A DNA stretch of 39,878 nucleotides from Sphingobacteriaceae bacterium (GTDB lineage Bacteria > Bacteroidota > Bacteroidia > Sphingobacteriales > Sphingobacteriaceae): contig JAHEGO010000012.1 in the NCBI GenBank assembly GCA_024645045.1, forward strand, positions 1 through 39,878, read 5' to 3'. The notes below the pieces were generated by a model. That model ran no database searches. It saw only the letters and a list, made by a program, of their open reading frames with translations, and was not told where the DNA came from. This document shows, one piece after another, positions 25,338 to 32,293 of this stretch. The stretch's first letter is position 1, and each line of letters starts with the position of its first letter. Position numbers and translations under genes: made by a program.

Positions 25338-25877
25338 CTAAAACAAAGAGTGGTAAGCTGATGTCATTAAATTGACAAATGAAGAAAAATCAATTCCTTG
25401 AGTCATAAAAAACAAAACAAATAAGACGATAAATATTAACATAATTATTCGTTTGATAAGTAATGCAAGGATAACAATAATTAGCGGAATGATAATTAGC
25501 AACCAAAGCGGTATTGGAATTACAAAACCTGCTAATATATAATACAAATGATAGATAGACGTATTTGTGGCTTCGTGTTTAATAAATAAAATATCACTTT
25601 TCATTTCTGCTGGTAATACAGCTTTCCCATTTTTAAAATCTACTTTTTCTATAAATCCGTTAATAACAAATTCATATTTACCCTCTATACTTTTATCTAA
25701 ATTTTCATCAGACTGAATGGCTTCAATGCTTAGTTTTGATTGACCATTTTCAGTTGACTTGGTTAATTGAAAATCATGGATTGGAAAAAGCTCTGAAAGG
25801 TTAAAATACACTGTATGTTGCGCTTGCAACTGAAATGTTATCAAAAAAGTAAATAGAATTGTTAAAAATTTGCGCAT
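25338..25877 (-). CDS. Membrane protein of unknown function
   Basis: A protein of 179 residues that I do not recognise. It has a signal peptide (MRKFLTILFTFLITFQLQA-Q), an extracytoplasmic region of about 90 residues with beta-strand character (KYEFVINGFIEKVDFKNGK), and a hydrophobic stretch around 110-160 that fits two or three membrane helices (FVIPIPLWLLIIIPLIIVIL and a following segment after KR). It converges with tamL with six bases between stops, and is divergent from the FG-GAP pair, whose ATG lies only 25 bases from its own start. No catalytic motif is visible. Confidence 0.75.
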   Translation of the reverse strand: MRKFLTILFTFLITFQLQAQHTVYFNLSELFPIHDFQLTKSTENGQSKLSIEAIQSDENLDKSIEGKYEFVINGFIEKVDFKNGKAVLPAEMKSDILFIKHEATNTSIYHLYYILAGFVIPIPLWLLIIIPLIIVILALLIKRIIMLIFIVLFVLFFMTQGIDFSSFVNLMTSAYHSLF

Positions 25878-25902
25878 ATTTAGGGGTATTATAAATACAA
25901 AA

Positions 25903-28188
25903 ATGAAAAAAATATTGGGATTTCTTAGTATTCTCTTAAATCTAGCCTTTTCTGGCTATTCCCAATATATTCTTGACTTTAAACCCTATAACACACAAAA
26001 AGCAGCAATTGAAGTAACAGAAAATGGCAAAAAATTAGCCAACCCTTTTGCTGGAGGTTTAGATGCTGCACAATTTGCCAGTTGCGACATAGATTTAGAT
26101 GGGAAAAAAGACATTGTTGTTCATGATAAAGAGGGTGCAATACTTTCTTGTTTTATAAATGAAGGTGGCTATAATGAAATTAAATACCGCTATGATATTC
26201 GCTATGTAAATAAATTTCCTCCAATTGGTGAGTGGTTGTTGATGGCAGATTTCAATGGCGACGGTAAAGAGGATTTATTTTGCGATAAAAATGGTGGTAT
26301 TGCTTGTTACCAAAACATTTCAACAGATTCAACTGGTTTAAAATTTAAACTAATCATAGAAAATATATTATTTAGTACGAGCCAATTTACCATTGCTATT
26401 GGCGTACCTTCTAATGATATACCAAGCATTGCAGATGTAGATGGAGATGGTGATTTAGATATATTGAGATTTGGAACAGCAACCATTACCCCAGGTGAAC
26501 CCATTGAATGGTTTAAAAATTTAACGGTTGAGAAAACAGGTGTAGCAGGAATAGATACTTTTGTAATTTGGAAAAGATGTTGGGGCAGGTTTATCGAAGA
26601 TAATAATGGTTGCACTATTTTATTGAATTATGCAGGCACTCCTTGTAGCACAGGCAGTAAAGAAGCAAATACTTTAAGCTTGAGTGAGTATCAAAATAAT
26701 ATTTCAAATATCAATAAATCTAATAAACACTCAGGGTCAACTTGTTTGGTGTATGATTTTACAGGTGATGGTAAAAGTGATGTATTGATTGGAGATGCGG
26801 GTTGTAACCAAATGTATTTGGCGATAAATGGCACTGATAATTCAAATGCCATCATGAACCAAGTTACCAATAACTTTCCTACTTCACTTCCTATTAATTT
26901 TGCTACGTTCCCTGCTGCTTTTTTATTAGATGTAAATAACGATGGCTTAAAAGATTTAATTGCGTGCCCAAATACGCCTAATGCAAGTCTTAATTTTGGG
27001 AATGTATATTTATACCTTAACAGAGGAACCAGTACTATTCCTTATTTTGTTTTTGATAATGCAAGCTTTTTAGTTGATGAACAAATAGATGTCGGAGAGG
27101 GCGCATGTCCTAGCTTTGTCGACTACAATCAAGATGGATTAATGGACATCATAATTGGTAGTACCGGATATTTTCAAAGTAATGGGACATACTTAAGCTC
27201 CCTTACATTATATAAAAATATTGGTACAAGTAACAACCCTAAATTTGAATTACAAACAAGAGATTATGGCAATTTCTCAAGCTTAGGAATACAAAAAATG
27301 TCGCCAGTATTTTTTGATGCAGACGGAGATGCTGATATAGATATGATTTGTGGCAGTGGAGATGGTAATTTTTATTATTTTCAAAATACCGCTGGTGCAG
27401 GTCAAACATTTAATTTAACATTTATTCCAAACAGCTTTCCTAATTTAGATATTGGAAATAATGCAAGCCCAAGTGTGTATGATCTTGACAAAGATGGCAT
27501 TCAAGATTTAATTACTGGTGAAAATTTTTATAATATCAATTTCCTTAAAGGGCAATCGAATACACAACCTTCTTATGTCTTAGCCACCGATTCTCTCTAT
27601 AAAATTAATTTAAGTAAGCTTTTTAATTACCCAAGTAGCCGAGCAGCTGTATGTATAAAAAAACTATTTAAAAATGATAAAGAACGGCTTTGTTTCAGTG
27701 ATGGAAATAGCTATTTATATGTCTTAGATAGCTTATATAACGACCCAAATAATGCTAATGTAAAGGTGAGTGGTTTAGTAAATTTAATGCAAGGTGAATT
27801 TAGCTATGCCAATGGTGGATTTAAAATTGATTTAGCAGATATTGACAATGATGATAAAGCAGAATTAATTATTGGAACTCCAAGAGGTGGAATTGCGCTA
27901 TATTGGAATGCAAGCCCTCCCCCTCCTGTTGGTATTGATTATAAACGTGTACAGCAATTAAATGCTTTTCCAAATCCAAGTCATACAGAATTTTATCTAA
28001 ATTTACCATTGAACGAATATGCTTTGAACATTCGCATCACCAATTTATTTGGAGAAGCAATAGAAGCACCCGTTAAGATTGAAAGAAATTCCATTTATAT
28101 TAACAGCCTAAATTTAGCTCAAGGCTTTTATTTAGTGGATATACAGACCAATCAAAAAAATTATTCAGCAAAAATCATCAAACAATAA
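25903..28188 (+). CDS. FG-GAP/VCBS-repeat T9SS-exported protein, copy 1
   Basis: A protein of 761 residues from the ATG at 25903; a frame start at 25870 would put eleven residues before the signal peptide (MKKILGFLSILLNLAFSGYS-Q). About nine FG-GAP-like repeats follow, each with an acidic calcium-binding type loop: DIDLDGKKDIVV, DFNGDGKEDLF, DVDGDGDLDIL, DFTGDGKSDVLIG, DVNNDGLKDLIA, DYNQDGLMDIIIG, DADGDADIDMICG, DLDKDGIQDLITG and DIDNDDKAELIIG. A Cys-containing insert (around RCWGRFIEDNNGC and TPCSTG) lies between repeats 3 and 4. The C-terminus is a T9SS type A sorting domain (LNAFPNPSHTEFYLNLP, LAQGFYLVDIQ). A surface or secreted propeller is predicted; its ligand is unknown. Confidence 0.9.
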   Translation: MKKILGFLSILLNLAFSGYSQYILDFKPYNTQKAAIEVTENGKKLANPFAGGLDAAQFASCDIDLDGKKDIVVHDKEGAILSCFINEGGYNEIKYRYDIRYVNKFPPIGEWLLMADFNGDGKEDLFCDKNGGIACYQNISTDSTGLKFKLIIENILFSTSQFTIAIGVPSNDIPSIADVDGDGDLDILRFGTATITPGEPIEWFKNLTVEKTGVAGIDTFVIWKRCWGRFIEDNNGCTILLNYAGTPCSTGSKEANTLSLSEYQNNISNINKSNKHSGSTCLVYDFTGDGKSDVLIGDAGCNQMYLAINGTDNSNAIMNQVTNNFPTSLPINFATFPAAFLLDVNNDGLKDLIACPNTPNASLNFGNVYLYLNRGTSTIPYFVFDNASFLVDEQIDVGEGACPSFVDYNQDGLMDIIIGSTGYFQSNGTYLSSLTLYKNIGTSNNPKFELQTRDYGNFSSLGIQKMSPVFFDADGDADIDMICGSGDGNFYYFQNTAGAGQTFNLTFIPNSFPNLDIGNNASPSVYDLDKDGIQDLITGENFYNINFLKGQSNTQPSYVLATDSLYKINLSKLFNYPSSRAAVCIKKLFKNDKERLCFSDGNSYLYVLDSLYNDPNNANVKVSGLVNLMQGEFSYANGGFKIDLADIDNDDKAELIIGTPRGGIALYWNASPPPPVGIDYKRVQQLNAFPNPSHTEFYLNLPLNEYALNIRITNLFGEAIEAPVKIERNSIYINSLNLAQGFYLVDIQTNQKNYSAKIIKQ

Positions 28189-30471
28189 ATGAAAAAATAT
28201 TTAATTTTTACACTTTTTTTATTCAGCAAAACAGTTGATGCCCAAAATTTTACAGGCAATTTTATACCGTATCCAAATACCATTCCTGTAACTCAAACCA
28301 ATAAATCTATAAACTTAGCATTTGCTGGAGGCATTGATGTGCCGCAGTTTTCTGCATGCGACTTAGATTTTGATGGTAAAAAAGACTTAGTAATTTTTGA
28401 CAGAGAAGGTGGAAAATTTAGCTGTTTTTTAAATAAAGGTAATACTGGTCAAATTGCATATGAATATGCTCCTCAATACGCAATAAAATTTCCTAAAAAA
28501 CTATCAGAATGGGTGCTAATGGTTGATTATAATGGCGATGGCAAAGAAGATATTTTTACAGCAATTCCGGGTGGCGTTAAAATTTATAAGAATACTTCAA
28601 GTATTCAAAATGGCATTTCTTTCGAATTAGTAAACGGCGATGTACAAGCAGATTTTGGAACATTTCTAACTAGGCTTTACAGCGGCCCTGCAGACATACC
28701 AGCAATTTTAGACGTAGATGATGATGGAGATGTAGATATCTTAAGTATGGAGCTAGGAATTGATACAGCAGGCGATGGGATTTATATGTATAAAAACATG
28801 TCAATGGAAACCTATGGTGTAAAAGATTCCGTTAATAATTTTATTGTTCATAAAAGATGTTGGGGAAGATTTAGAGAATCATATCAAAATTGCAATGTGT
28901 CCTTACAATATCAAAGTGGTCCTTGTGCCACTGGTAATAGATATATTCCAGAATTCACTAAATCAGAATTTGAAACTTTAGTTAGCAATAAATTAAACGG
29001 CGGAAAACATTCTGGGTCAACATTATTGGTTTTTGACTCAAATGGTGACGGTAAAAAAGACATTCTAATTGGTGATATTGGTTGTAATAATATGTATTTA
29101 TTGGTGAATAGCGAAAGTAATTCAAACCCAATATTTACGCAATTTTTCAGGTATTACCCGGCAACAGATCCTATACTTGTGGAGAGTTTTCCTGCCGCAT
29201 TTTTCATAGACGTAAACAATGATAATAAAAGAGATTTAATTGCTGTTCCAAATACGACTGGAAATGCTGATAATTTTGAAAACATAAAATTATACTTAAA
29301 TCAAGGAACCGATGCAGCTCCAGATTTTGTGTTAACTACTAACGCATTTTTAGAAGAGGAAATGATTGAAGTTGGTGAAGGCTCCCACCCTGTTTTTGTT
29401 GACTTTGACCAAAATGGACTCATGGATTTTGTAGTCAGTACCACAGGGTATTTTCAATCAAATGGCACTTATAAATCTGGATTAACTGCTTATAAAAATG
29501 TTGGAACTATTAATAGCCCGGCATTTGAGCTCGTAAGCAGAGACATGTGGTCTTTAGCTAATTTTAACATTTCTAATATGGTTCCTACTTTTGGAGATGT
29601 AGATCATGACAATGATTTAGACATGATTACTGGTGCAAATGATGGCACCTTTTACTATTTTGAAAATACAGCAGGTGCGAATAATCCTTTTCAATTTAAT
29701 TTTAAGTCTAACTATTTAACTGGTTTAGATGTAGGCAATTTATCTACCCCATTTTTAAACAATACCTTAAGCGCAAATTCAAGACTGGCAATGATTTCGG
29801 GCGAAAGATTTGACAATATCAATTATTGGCAAGACACTTCTTCTACAGCCGAACCTAAATTTAAATTAATCACAGATTCCCTTTTTAAAATTAATATGAG
29901 AGCCGTTTCAGGATTTCCTAGTGGTAGGACAACGGCAGTGATTCAAAAATTATTTAGCGCAGACCGTGAGCGATTAGTAGTTTCAAATGCCAATGGAAAA
30001 GTTTATATTTTTAATCATATTGACCAACTTTTATTGTCATTAGGCCCTGTATTGATAGACTCTATCAATTTAATTCAAGGACAATATACTTTGAGCAATG
30101 GTGGATTTGGAATAAGCATGGCAGATATTGATGGCGATAACAAGCCAGAACTGTTAGCAGGTAACCCTCAAGGCGGTTTGGTGTTGTTTAAAAATCAAAC
30201 TATTCCTGATGGTATCCAACAAGCTGATCAATTTAAAAAACATATAATTTGTTATCCTAATCCAAGTAAAAATTTCATTAAACTATATAGTACCGAGCAT
30301 ATTAAAATCAATGCCTTCACAATATTGAATCAATTGGGGCAAATTATTTTACAAGAGCAAATAAATGCAAATGCAGTTGAGATAAATTTAACCACAATAC
30401 CTAATGGAATTTACACTTTGAGCATTTCAACAGAAGCAGGAATTCAATTTGAAAAAATAATCAAACAATAA
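28189..30471 (+). CDS. FG-GAP/VCBS-repeat T9SS-exported protein, copy 2
   Basis: A protein of 760 residues, a full-length paralogue of the gene directly before it, with start ATG touching the previous stop (TAAATG). Signal peptide MKKYLIFTLFLFSKTVDA-Q, then the same order of FG-GAP-like repeats (DLDFDGKKDLVI, DYNGDGKEDIF, DVDDDGDVDIL, DSNGDGKKDILIG, DVNNDNKRDLIA, DFDQNGLMDFVV, DVDHDNDLDMITG, DIDGDNKPELLAG). The repeat corresponding to number eight of copy 1 has lost its acidic loop (around LSANSRLAMISG). The Cys insert is conserved (RCWGRFRESYQNC, GPCATG). A T9SS sorting domain ends the protein (IICYPNPSKNFIKLY, IPNGIYTLSIS). Its stop is one base from the converging peroxidase gene. Confidence 0.9.
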   Translation: MKKYLIFTLFLFSKTVDAQNFTGNFIPYPNTIPVTQTNKSINLAFAGGIDVPQFSACDLDFDGKKDLVIFDREGGKFSCFLNKGNTGQIAYEYAPQYAIKFPKKLSEWVLMVDYNGDGKEDIFTAIPGGVKIYKNTSSIQNGISFELVNGDVQADFGTFLTRLYSGPADIPAILDVDDDGDVDILSMELGIDTAGDGIYMYKNMSMETYGVKDSVNNFIVHKRCWGRFRESYQNCNVSLQYQSGPCATGNRYIPEFTKSEFETLVSNKLNGGKHSGSTLLVFDSNGDGKKDILIGDIGCNNMYLLVNSESNSNPIFTQFFRYYPATDPILVESFPAAFFIDVNNDNKRDLIAVPNTTGNADNFENIKLYLNQGTDAAPDFVLTTNAFLEEEMIEVGEGSHPVFVDFDQNGLMDFVVSTTGYFQSNGTYKSGLTAYKNVGTINSPAFELVSRDMWSLANFNISNMVPTFGDVDHDNDLDMITGANDGTFYYFENTAGANNPFQFNFKSNYLTGLDVGNLSTPFLNNTLSANSRLAMISGERFDNINYWQDTSSTAEPKFKLITDSLFKINMRAVSGFPSGRTTAVIQKLFSADRERLVVSNANGKVYIFNHIDQLLLSLGPVLIDSINLIQGQYTLSNGGFGISMADIDGDNKPELLAGNPQGGLVLFKNQTIPDGIQQADQFKKHIICYPNPSKNFIKLYSTEHIKINAFTILNQLGQIILQEQINANAVEINLTTIPNGIYTLSISTEAGIQFEKIIKQ

Positions 30472-30472
30472 A

Positions 30473-31558
30473 TTATTTTTTGAAAGGATTTTGGTATGCT
30501 GGATTATGTGTAAAGGAAGTGTCTGTTAATGTATTTAAGAATGCAATTAATTGTTGCTTCTCAACTGTAGTTAACCCCAAGCCACCATATTGCTCTAACC
30601 TTTCAGGAGATTTAGTGAAATTGATATCTAAATTCCTGTTTTGCTTTATACCTGAACTGTAAAAATCCATCACTTGCATTAAATTCTCAAAACGGCCATC
30701 GTGCATGTATGGACCTGTAAGTGCTATATTCCTTAAAGTTGGCACTTTGAACTTTCCATCATCTGTGGTCTTCTTTGTAACAAACGAAAGTCCTTTTCCG
30801 ATCATTTCTTGATCAGTTAGTAATCCATTATTTCTAAAAATAGTATCTAGATTATGAGCGAGTAAAGTACCATTCGCTCCATGACAATGAAAGCACTGGC
30901 CTCTTTCTGTAAAGAAAATTCTAAATCCTGCATATTCATCTGCGGTAAAGGCTCGCTCTTGAATTTCATAAAACTTATCGTAGGTCGATTGATTAGAAAC
31001 AATGATTCGCTCAAATTGTGAAATTGCTTTAGCAATCATTTCTGGAGTAACAGTAGCTGTACCAAATGCCTTTTTAAATAATGGCGCGTATATTTTTGAA
31101 TGGGTTAGTTTTGCAGCCACATTTTCACTTGTCTCGTGCATTTCTAATGGATTATTAACAGGCCCCAATGCTTGCTCCTCTAAGCTTCCTGCACGTCCGT
31201 TCCAAAAGAATTTTCTTTGCCATGCTAAATTTATTATTGCCATCGCATTGACATCACCTGTAGCGCCTGCAACACCAACACTGTATTTTTTATTTTCAGC
31301 AAATGAACTCGATATGTTATGGCAACTTGCACAACTAATGGTACTGTCACTAGATAAAATTGGATCATAAAACAACATCCTTCCCAAGCTAACACCTGAT
31401 TTAGTCAAAGGATTATTAGTTGGTGAAATTAGTTGAGGGAAATAAGCAGGTGCTTGAAAATCATAAGAATCATCTGGGGCTGCAGTATGCTCTTCACAAG
31501 CCTGCATAATGAATATTGATATCAATAACAATATTACTATTGTTGTATACTTTTTCAT
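30473..31558 (-). CDS. Diheme cytochrome c peroxidase/MauG family lipoprotein, MbnH-like
   Basis: A protein of 361 residues with a lipoprotein signal (lipobox MQAC, Cys 21). Two c-type heme sites are present: CASCH at 76-80 and CFHCH at 222-226. Other family marks are LGRMLFYDPILS, FFWNGRAGSLEEQALGPVNN, and KVPTLRNIALTGPYMHDGRF (270-290). The CcpA/MauG family includes true peroxidases and enzymes such as MauG and MbnH that oxidise a partner protein. The gene directly upstream, three bases away, encodes an MbnP-family protein, which points to the MbnH role of oxidising a Trp in MbnP. That assignment rests on gene pairing; a classical peroxidase remains possible. Confidence 0.9.
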   Translation of the reverse strand: MKKYTTIVILLLISIFIMQACEEHTAAPDDSYDFQAPAYFPQLISPTNNPLTKSGVSLGRMLFYDPILSSDSTISCASCHNISSSFAENKKYSVGVAGATGDVNAMAIINLAWQRKFFWNGRAGSLEEQALGPVNNPLEMHETSENVAAKLTHSKIYAPLFKKAFGTATVTPEMIAKAISQFERIIVSNQSTYDKFYEIQERAFTADEYAGFRIFFTERGQCFHCHGANGTLLAHNLDTIFRNNGLLTDQEMIGKGLSFVTKKTTDDGKFKVPTLRNIALTGPYMHDGRFENLMQVMDFYSSGIKQNRNLDINFTKSPERLEQYGGLGLTTVEKQQLIAFLNTLTDTSFTHNPAYQNPFKK

Positions 31559-31561
31559 TTT

Positions 31562-32293
31562 TTATTTAAGTGTAAATACACCCACTCCGTTTTGTTTAAA
31601 CAATAACTGTTTTTGCTGATCTTCCATCATATATCCATAACCATCATTTAAATTAATCTGATTGATACCATTAAACCATTGGTCAATATTAGCTTGAAAT
31701 GTTATACTTTGGTCGTTTCCGTTCACATTCAAATCTAAAGGATATTCGTTATAAATCTGATTAGGTGTTTTACCCAAATGAATTGCATAACCTACCGTGT
31801 CATTAGATGAATTTTGGAAAACACCTTCCATCATCATAAAATGATACCCTCCACCTAATGTATAAGGCCATTCCATTGAATTGTTTTCAGAATTATTTGG
31901 CAAGCCAAATGGAAATATATTTCTTGCAGAATCTACACCAAATTGAAAAGATATTTTGGTGTATTTTCCTTCAGGAATATTGCTTAAAGTATAGTTTTGA
32001 TAATTAACATTTGCTTCCATTGGGTTTATCAATTTCACCATGTTTACATCATATTTAACCCCATTAGATTGATATAATGTTAATTTAGAAATGTAATATT
32101 TTAAAGTTTTAATATTGAACTTATTCCCTGTTGCAGTTGTATATATTAATTGATTGTTTTCAGAAATTACCAATGTCGAGTTTTGAAAAGTATGTTGAAA
32201 ATTAACTTGTAATGTTCCATTTGTATTTTGATTTCCCCAAGTACAACCTGCTAAACTGAAAAACAAAAAAACGAGGAATAATTGAACTTTCAT
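31562..32293 (-). CDS. MbnP family copper-binding-type lipoprotein
   Basis: A protein of 243 residues with a lipobox (SLAGC, Cys 17). The MbnP family pattern is seen in TLQVNFQHTFQNSTL, then FNIKTLKYYISKLTLYQSNG, PEGKYTKISFQFGVDSARN, and MEWPYTLGGGYHFMMMEGVF (140-159), where W142 lies in the family's conserved W...GYxF.xxEG block. Later come YAIHLG (H172) and SITFQANIDQWFNG. In the characterised system MbnH converts a Trp of MbnP to kynurenine, and MbnP binds copper; whether W142 is that residue needs alignment. It is the first gene of a two-gene unit with the diheme enzyme. No methanobactin synthesis genes are in the window. Confidence 0.88.
   Translation of the reverse strand: MKVQLFLVFLFFSLAGCTWGNQNTNGTLQVNFQHTFQNSTLVISENNQLIYTTATGNKFNIKTLKYYISKLTLYQSNGVKYDVNMVKLINPMEANVNYQNYTLSNIPEGKYTKISFQFGVDSARNIFPFGLPNNSENNSMEWPYTLGGGYHFMMMEGVFQNSSNDTVGYAIHLGKTPNQIYNEYPLDLNVNGNDQSITFQANIDQWFNGINQINLNDGYGYMMEDQQKQLLFKQNGVGVFTLK

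Follow-up and report, generated by a model that had tools for sequence, protein, structure and literature searches.

The window, a 39,878-nucleotide stretch of DNA from a freshwater Sphingobacteriaceae bacterium, encodes an MbnP-family lipoprotein and a diheme enzyme as adjacent genes, and this pair belongs to a little-described branch of the MbnP family. From sequence comparison, the diheme enzyme of this branch seems to be tied to a His/His/Met site on its MbnP partner (H151, H172, and M223) and not strictly to a Trp at position 140 or 142, because the site decays where the diheme is gone, and because 19 of 193 collected variant MbnPs are partnered by a diheme while lacking Trp at both positions. 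The two genes are:

31562..32293, minus strand: MbnP-family lipoprotein of the variant (GGGYH) subfamily, 243 aa (ORF, profile and fold matches)
30473..31558, minus strand: MauG/MbnH-type diheme enzyme, lipoprotein, 361 aa (ORF, profile and fold matches)

The MbnP stop codon (TAA) lies at 31562-31564 and the diheme ATG three bases on, in frame and in one reading direction. The original prediction of an MbnP-family gene three bases from a diheme MauG/CcP-family gene is borne out by concordant matches to PF20243, PF03150, 7l6g, and 6e1c. The 243-residue protein scores 116.5 bits against Pfam PF20243 (MbnP; curated cut-off 27), and its AlphaFold2 model (mean pLDDT 79.7; residues 126-141 below 50) aligns to 7l6g with a Z-score of 14.0 over 205 residues (rmsd 4.1; next entry Z 5.2). 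The 7l6g protein is known for copper, as the PDB title of its partner also indicates. Matches of the single sequence to staphylococcal enterotoxins (best E 0.0076) were rejected as chance, both profile and fold searches having given 7l6g. The diheme protein scores 184.2 bits against PF03150 (CCP_MauG; cut-off 25.6), and its model (mean pLDDT 70.7) matches 6e1c (MbnH) with a Z-score of 18.2 over 287 residues (next 15.5). The families are thus as predicted, but the lipoprotein is not a standard MbnP, and both proteins miss the NCBIfam equivalog cut-offs: the best model for MbnP, TIGR04052 (MbnP_like_WxW, an equivalog), gives 27.8 bits against a cut-off of 140, and that for the diheme, TIGR04039 (MbnH family di-heme enzyme), 270.5 bits against 362.85. 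A chance pairing is excluded, since a diheme gene adjoins the MbnP gene in 190 of the 193 variant MbnPs, all from Bacteroidota.

Lipoboxes had been proposed for both proteins. The lipid cysteines themselves are well conserved, C17 of MbnP in 192/193 variants (the exception being a gap in L231) and C21 of the diheme in 31/31 partner enzymes counted, but the box preceding C21 (IMQAC) departs from the textbook lipobox. In 118 of 153 variant MbnPs, two or more acidic residues come after the lipid cysteine, the window protein (CTWGNQN) not among them; such residues resemble the surface-export signal of Bacteroidota lipoproteins. The predicted absence of methanobactin genes holds for the genome (95.6% complete), in which profile searches for the MbnB-family biosynthesis gene (PF05114, TIGR04159) gave 0 matches. 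The pair therefore does stand alone, but this is not unusual: according to the 2013 methanobactin survey (PMC3621798), conservation of the MbnP/MbnH pair extends well past the methanobactin producers. Pairs outside methanobactin loci have been in print since then, and what is new here is the variant subfamily; our literature search, whose reach excluded the 2021 PNAS and 2019 JBC papers on MbnP/MbnH, found no paper describing the GGGYH clade.

The WxW motif is incomplete in the window MbnP (W142-P-Y144), in which the first Trp alone is retained. In place of the second Trp, variant MbnPs have a P-x-x-x-GGG-Y-His151 segment, so that the window reads M140-E-W142-P-Y-T-L-G-G-G-Y-H151 versus M-x-W-x-W-x-x-G-Y-(I/K/R/V) in ordinary MbnPs, while M140-x-W142, H172, and M223 are kept. 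The codons concerned are:

31874..31876, minus strand: M140 (M-x-W), Met in 46/48 ordinary MbnPs
31868..31870, minus strand: W142, in the column of the first WxW Trp, Trp in 48/48 ordinary MbnPs
31841..31843, minus strand: H151, the extra His of the variant clade, in 190/192 readable variants
31778..31780, minus strand: H172, the family-wide invariant His, in 48/48 ordinary and 192/193 variant MbnPs
31625..31627, minus strand: M223, Met or His in 46/48 ordinary MbnPs (Met 34, His 12), Met in 190/192 readable variants

In MbnP, the first Trp of WxW is reportedly converted to kynurenine, and Cu(I) is said to be coordinated by a single His together with a single Met. The copper-site residues reported for MbnP are present in the window (W142, H172, and M140/M223), and crystal MbnP (7l6g) shows the same gMaWnW...HVGS pattern. 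The alignment of W142 with the modified Trp, on which the original prediction hinged, is confirmed by its place in the column of the first WxW Trp.

The partner enzyme carries the signatures of MauG and MbnH, at the following positions:

31319..31333, minus strand: first heme site, CASCH (residues 76-80), from sequence; CxxCH kept in the clade
31202..31204, minus strand: W119, invariant in 152/152 partner enzymes
30881..30895, minus strand: second heme site, CFHCH (residues 222-226), from sequence; CxxCH kept in the clade
30659..30661, minus strand: Y300, in one column with MauG residue 294 and the corresponding Tyr of MbnH

W119 is presumably the Trp lying between the hemes in MauG and the peroxidases, and MauG residue 294 we take to be the axial tyrosine. 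Both CxxCH motifs, W119, E127, E139, and Y300 are invariant in the 152 clade partner enzymes, and the distal His at position 96 is absent from all 152, the residue being V, I, A, or S. As the window enzyme has V96 at the distal His position of peroxidase 1iqc and Y300 at MauG 294, its sequence places it as a MauG/MbnH-type enzyme, not a classical bacterial cytochrome c peroxidase; the distal His of the peroxidase activation loop, a feature that would have spoken against the original prediction, is missing. The dihemes beside WxW-type Bacteroidota MbnPs (e.g., L011 2175-3218) conserve a His two residues ahead of the column that holds the distal His in peroxidases, and this His is missing in the partners of variant MbnPs. 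Searching viral contigs with the diheme query gave no match.

Variant MbnPs were collected broadly. A scan of genome contigs returned 37 variant-type loci, all from Bacteroidota to judge by their titles; a sample of one large family had the variant in 114 of 397 genomes (E 1e-33), and an order-level sample in 59 of 395. The first set comprises 153 distinct proteins (leaving out two duplicates and L081, which contains a stretch of Ns) and the second a further 40 (leaving out a 131-aa fragment in L278), with a diheme adjacent in 152/153 and 38/40, respectively. In trees of 37 variant and 43 ordinary pairs taken from larger sets, variant MbnPs fall on one side of a branch when the motif is excluded from the alignment (support 40, weak), and their partner dihemes likewise (support 91), the window's diheme branch shifting towards ordinary dihemes when six further dihemes are added. 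MbnP and diheme tree distances correlate with r 0.87 across all pairs and 0.94 when only the clade is considered, values that shared species history alone could give.

The explanation we find somewhat more probable than its competitors taken together is that of a copper-binding lipoprotein with a dedicated diheme maturation enzyme on the cell envelope, in which W142 of the window protein would become kynurenine. From the gene pair, folds, residues, co-inheritance, and site decay, all read from sequence, we infer copper as the metal, kynurenine at W142, and direct docking of the two proteins. MbnP and the diheme would be anchored side by side on the envelope, MbnP binding a single metal ion, in all likelihood Cu(I), through H172, M223, the clade-added H151, and the residue at W142; the diheme, using peroxide or oxygen via a charge-resonance state of MauG/MbnH type, would oxidize W142 to kynurenine and so complete or tune the site. 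The likely purpose would be to supply periplasmic enzymes with scarce copper captured at the envelope. This explanation is favored by the 7l6g fold, by the retained M140-x-W142, H172, and M223 columns, by a diheme closest to MbnH in sequence and fold, by Y300 and V96, by the diheme's adjacency in 190/193, and by the published kynurenine at a copper site of MopE/CorA. Against this explanation count the missed equivalog cut-offs and the absent second Trp of WxW.

The behavior of the Trp across the clade complicates a view centered on W142. W142 is retained in all 39 variant members with Met at 140, and since these span several families, M-x-W-P looks ancestral in the variant clade, as far as sequences can tell. 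Flavobacteriaceae variants mostly have W-x-V-P or W-x-W-P, and some F-x-V-P; in the derived members position 142 is mostly Val with Trp at 140, and which Trp is the equivalent one depends on the alignment. The 153-member tree implies six or more changes at position 140, against one at position 142. Seventeen of the 153 lack Trp at both positions, through at least five tree changes, counting both directions, and a diheme is next door in 17/17, its heme and axial residues complete (CxxCH motifs, W119, E127, E139, and Y300). The second set adds two further partnered Trp-less members (L266 and L267), for the total of 19/193. W142 is thus in the right column, but making it the center is too simple for the clade: as these members show, Trp oxidation at 140 or 142 cannot be the diheme's only task clade-wide.

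The members without an adjacent diheme are informative about what that task involves. Apart from H151, H172, and M223, no near-invariant column of variant MbnPs is a His or Met, and each of the three is present in every partnered member with a readable residue. The MbnP of L204 (genome G582) breaks, among 15 near-invariant columns, exactly H151 (Tyr) and M223 (Thr), and its 5 kb locus contains no CxxCH on the gene's strand. In G732, a sister of G582 whose genome is one contig, the gene order is unchanged except that the diheme is missing, and MbnP carries H151Y, M223T, and H172Y and a broken Trp, while other near-invariant residues are kept. Dihemes scored in these two genomes reach 186-316 bits with the clade model versus at least 447 for clade partners (a 612-aa match in G582 is unscored), and the other four genomes of the genus gave no variant MbnP at the search threshold. 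L259 (genome G756) likewise has no adjacent diheme, but an unlinked clade-type diheme elsewhere scores 464 bits, and H151, H172, and M223 are intact. By these comparisons, the residues of MbnP that are likely to bind metal seem to be lost only in the absence of the diheme; that the two members without a matching diheme break the site and L259, with an unlinked one, keeps it favors the maturation explanation. The decay is one evolutionary event in two genomes of one genus, strong in content and weak in number. Some ordinary MbnPs without an adjacent diheme keep their site (e.g., L021), so adjacency alone is not required among them.

A tentative extension, which we hold possible but short of probable, is that the copper site was rebuilt in this clade, H151 joining H172 and M223, so that kynurenine became dispensable while the diheme stayed essential, the Trp moving from 142 to 140 and then being lost in several Flavobacteriaceae.

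The same observations leave some room for a diheme that serves the His/His/Met site by electron transfer, altering no residue, with the Trp at 140/142 a bystander; it would oxidize Cu(I) to Cu(II), or MbnP would be the electron donor in peroxide removal. The 19 partnered Trp-less members, with H151, H172, and M223 intact, and the complete enzymes examined in 17/17 of their partners fit this alternative, but we consider it rather unlikely, as the diheme signatures are those of MauG/MbnH and not of a peroxidase (axial Tyr, no distal His), and W142 is conserved wherever Met occupies position 140. That the diheme modifies another MbnP residue, W206 being the best candidate (or Y150), appears improbable. 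Of 192 readable variants, 177 have Trp at position 206, where ordinary MbnPs mostly have L/V/I/M, and W206 is present in 19/19 partnered members without Trp at 140/142; however, it is lost in 15 partnered members, being F or L in 12/153 and missing in three of the 40 later ones, and was rejected as an obligatory substrate. Y150 is Tyr in 192/193 variants, but it is invariant in ordinary MbnPs too and survives in G582 and G732, whose genomes lack a matching diheme.

The genomic surroundings bear on the choice of metal. The pair converges on two FG-GAP proteins, as originally described, and both have type IX sorting tails:

28189..30471, plus strand: FG-GAP beta-propeller protein carrying a type IX sorting tail, in convergent orientation to the pair (context)
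25870..28188, plus strand: second FG-GAP protein, likewise with a type IX sorting tail (context)

The nearer gene ends one base from the diheme stop, and sister genomes show this arrangement too. The pair has no copper gene as a neighbor, and copper is not named by anything in the window or its sister loci. The variant pair of many Flavobacteriales lies directly ahead of sufA/sufB (e.g., L066 3950-10793) and is preceded by a beta-propeller lipoprotein and by a choice-of-anchor B protein, whose family (TIGR04312) and type IX tail were checked at L066; sufA (iron-sulphur assembly) is found in 22/36 scan loci and an SWGWTDP protein in 19/36. The silence on copper and the proximity of sufA would suit a pair handling another metal or a small redox ligand, which we give little credence, the His/Met site letters and the fold being those of a protein known for copper.

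A TonB-dependent receptor adjoins the MEWP pair of L233. A small, membrane-anchored-looking CxGKC protein lies upstream of some pairs (L062 5312-6801; L059 2246-3850; L064 6344-6730; L242 624-1040), followed at L062 and L059 by a 'CDLC' outer-membrane-like protein; the CxGKC and 'CDLC' proteins tested had no Pfam or NCBIfam match over cut-off. Two tandem variant MbnP genes share one downstream diheme at L253 2025-3546, and two tandem MbnP/diheme pairs, one with a WMW motif, occur at L050 4170-8150. The source genome itself (1.83 Mb) has five PF20243 matches representing four genes, namely that of the window, a WSW-type pair on contig C34, a lone WAW-type gene on C21, and one cut by the contig end on C39, together with two CCP_MauG genes. 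The lone WxW-type gene on C21 (L009 6134-6962) has no neighboring diheme and is split by a frameshift; it is intact in four sister genomes (L021, L022, L023, and L025).

Compared with MbnP/MbnH of Methylosinus trichosporium OB3b (7l6g, 6e1c), the window pair shares the folds, gene pairing, M-x-W, H-x-G, and MauG-type diheme signatures, but differs in lacking the second WxW Trp and methanobactin genes, in its GGGYH segment with H151, in its lipid anchors, and in scoring below the TIGR04052 and TIGR04039 cut-offs. Ordinary WxW pairs of Bacteroidota, including the genome's own C34 pair, likewise have an adjacent diheme, M-x-W, H172, and M223, but they carry I/K/R/V at the H151 position, the second Trp, and a separately branching diheme. 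The window diheme resembles MauG, the tryptophan tryptophylquinone enzyme, in its fold and aligned axial Tyr (Y300 with 294), but scores 178 bits with the MauG model versus 270 with the MbnH model, and no methylamine dehydrogenase gene is among the neighbors read around the pair. A copper protein next to a diheme enzyme is also found in MopE/SACCP and CorA/CorB, and in MopE/CorA of methanotrophs a Trp is converted to kynurenine at a copper site with two His, as described in PMC3912023; the CorA motif given there, W-x-H (Kyn62, H64, and H114), is unlike the window MbnP, and the 2013 survey (PMC3621798) describes MbnP as not markedly similar in sequence to MopE/CorA-type proteins.

For the role of MbnH-type enzymes outside methanobactin loci, the variant clade makes the enzyme's job testable, as its natural variants separate the candidate functions: enzyme with Trp, enzyme without Trp, and a decaying site without enzyme. 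If the site was indeed rebuilt, an MbnH-type enzyme would have a second function besides converting Trp to kynurenine at the known place. With the variant in 114 of 397 genomes of one family, any envelope copper-handling role would be widespread in Bacteroidota.
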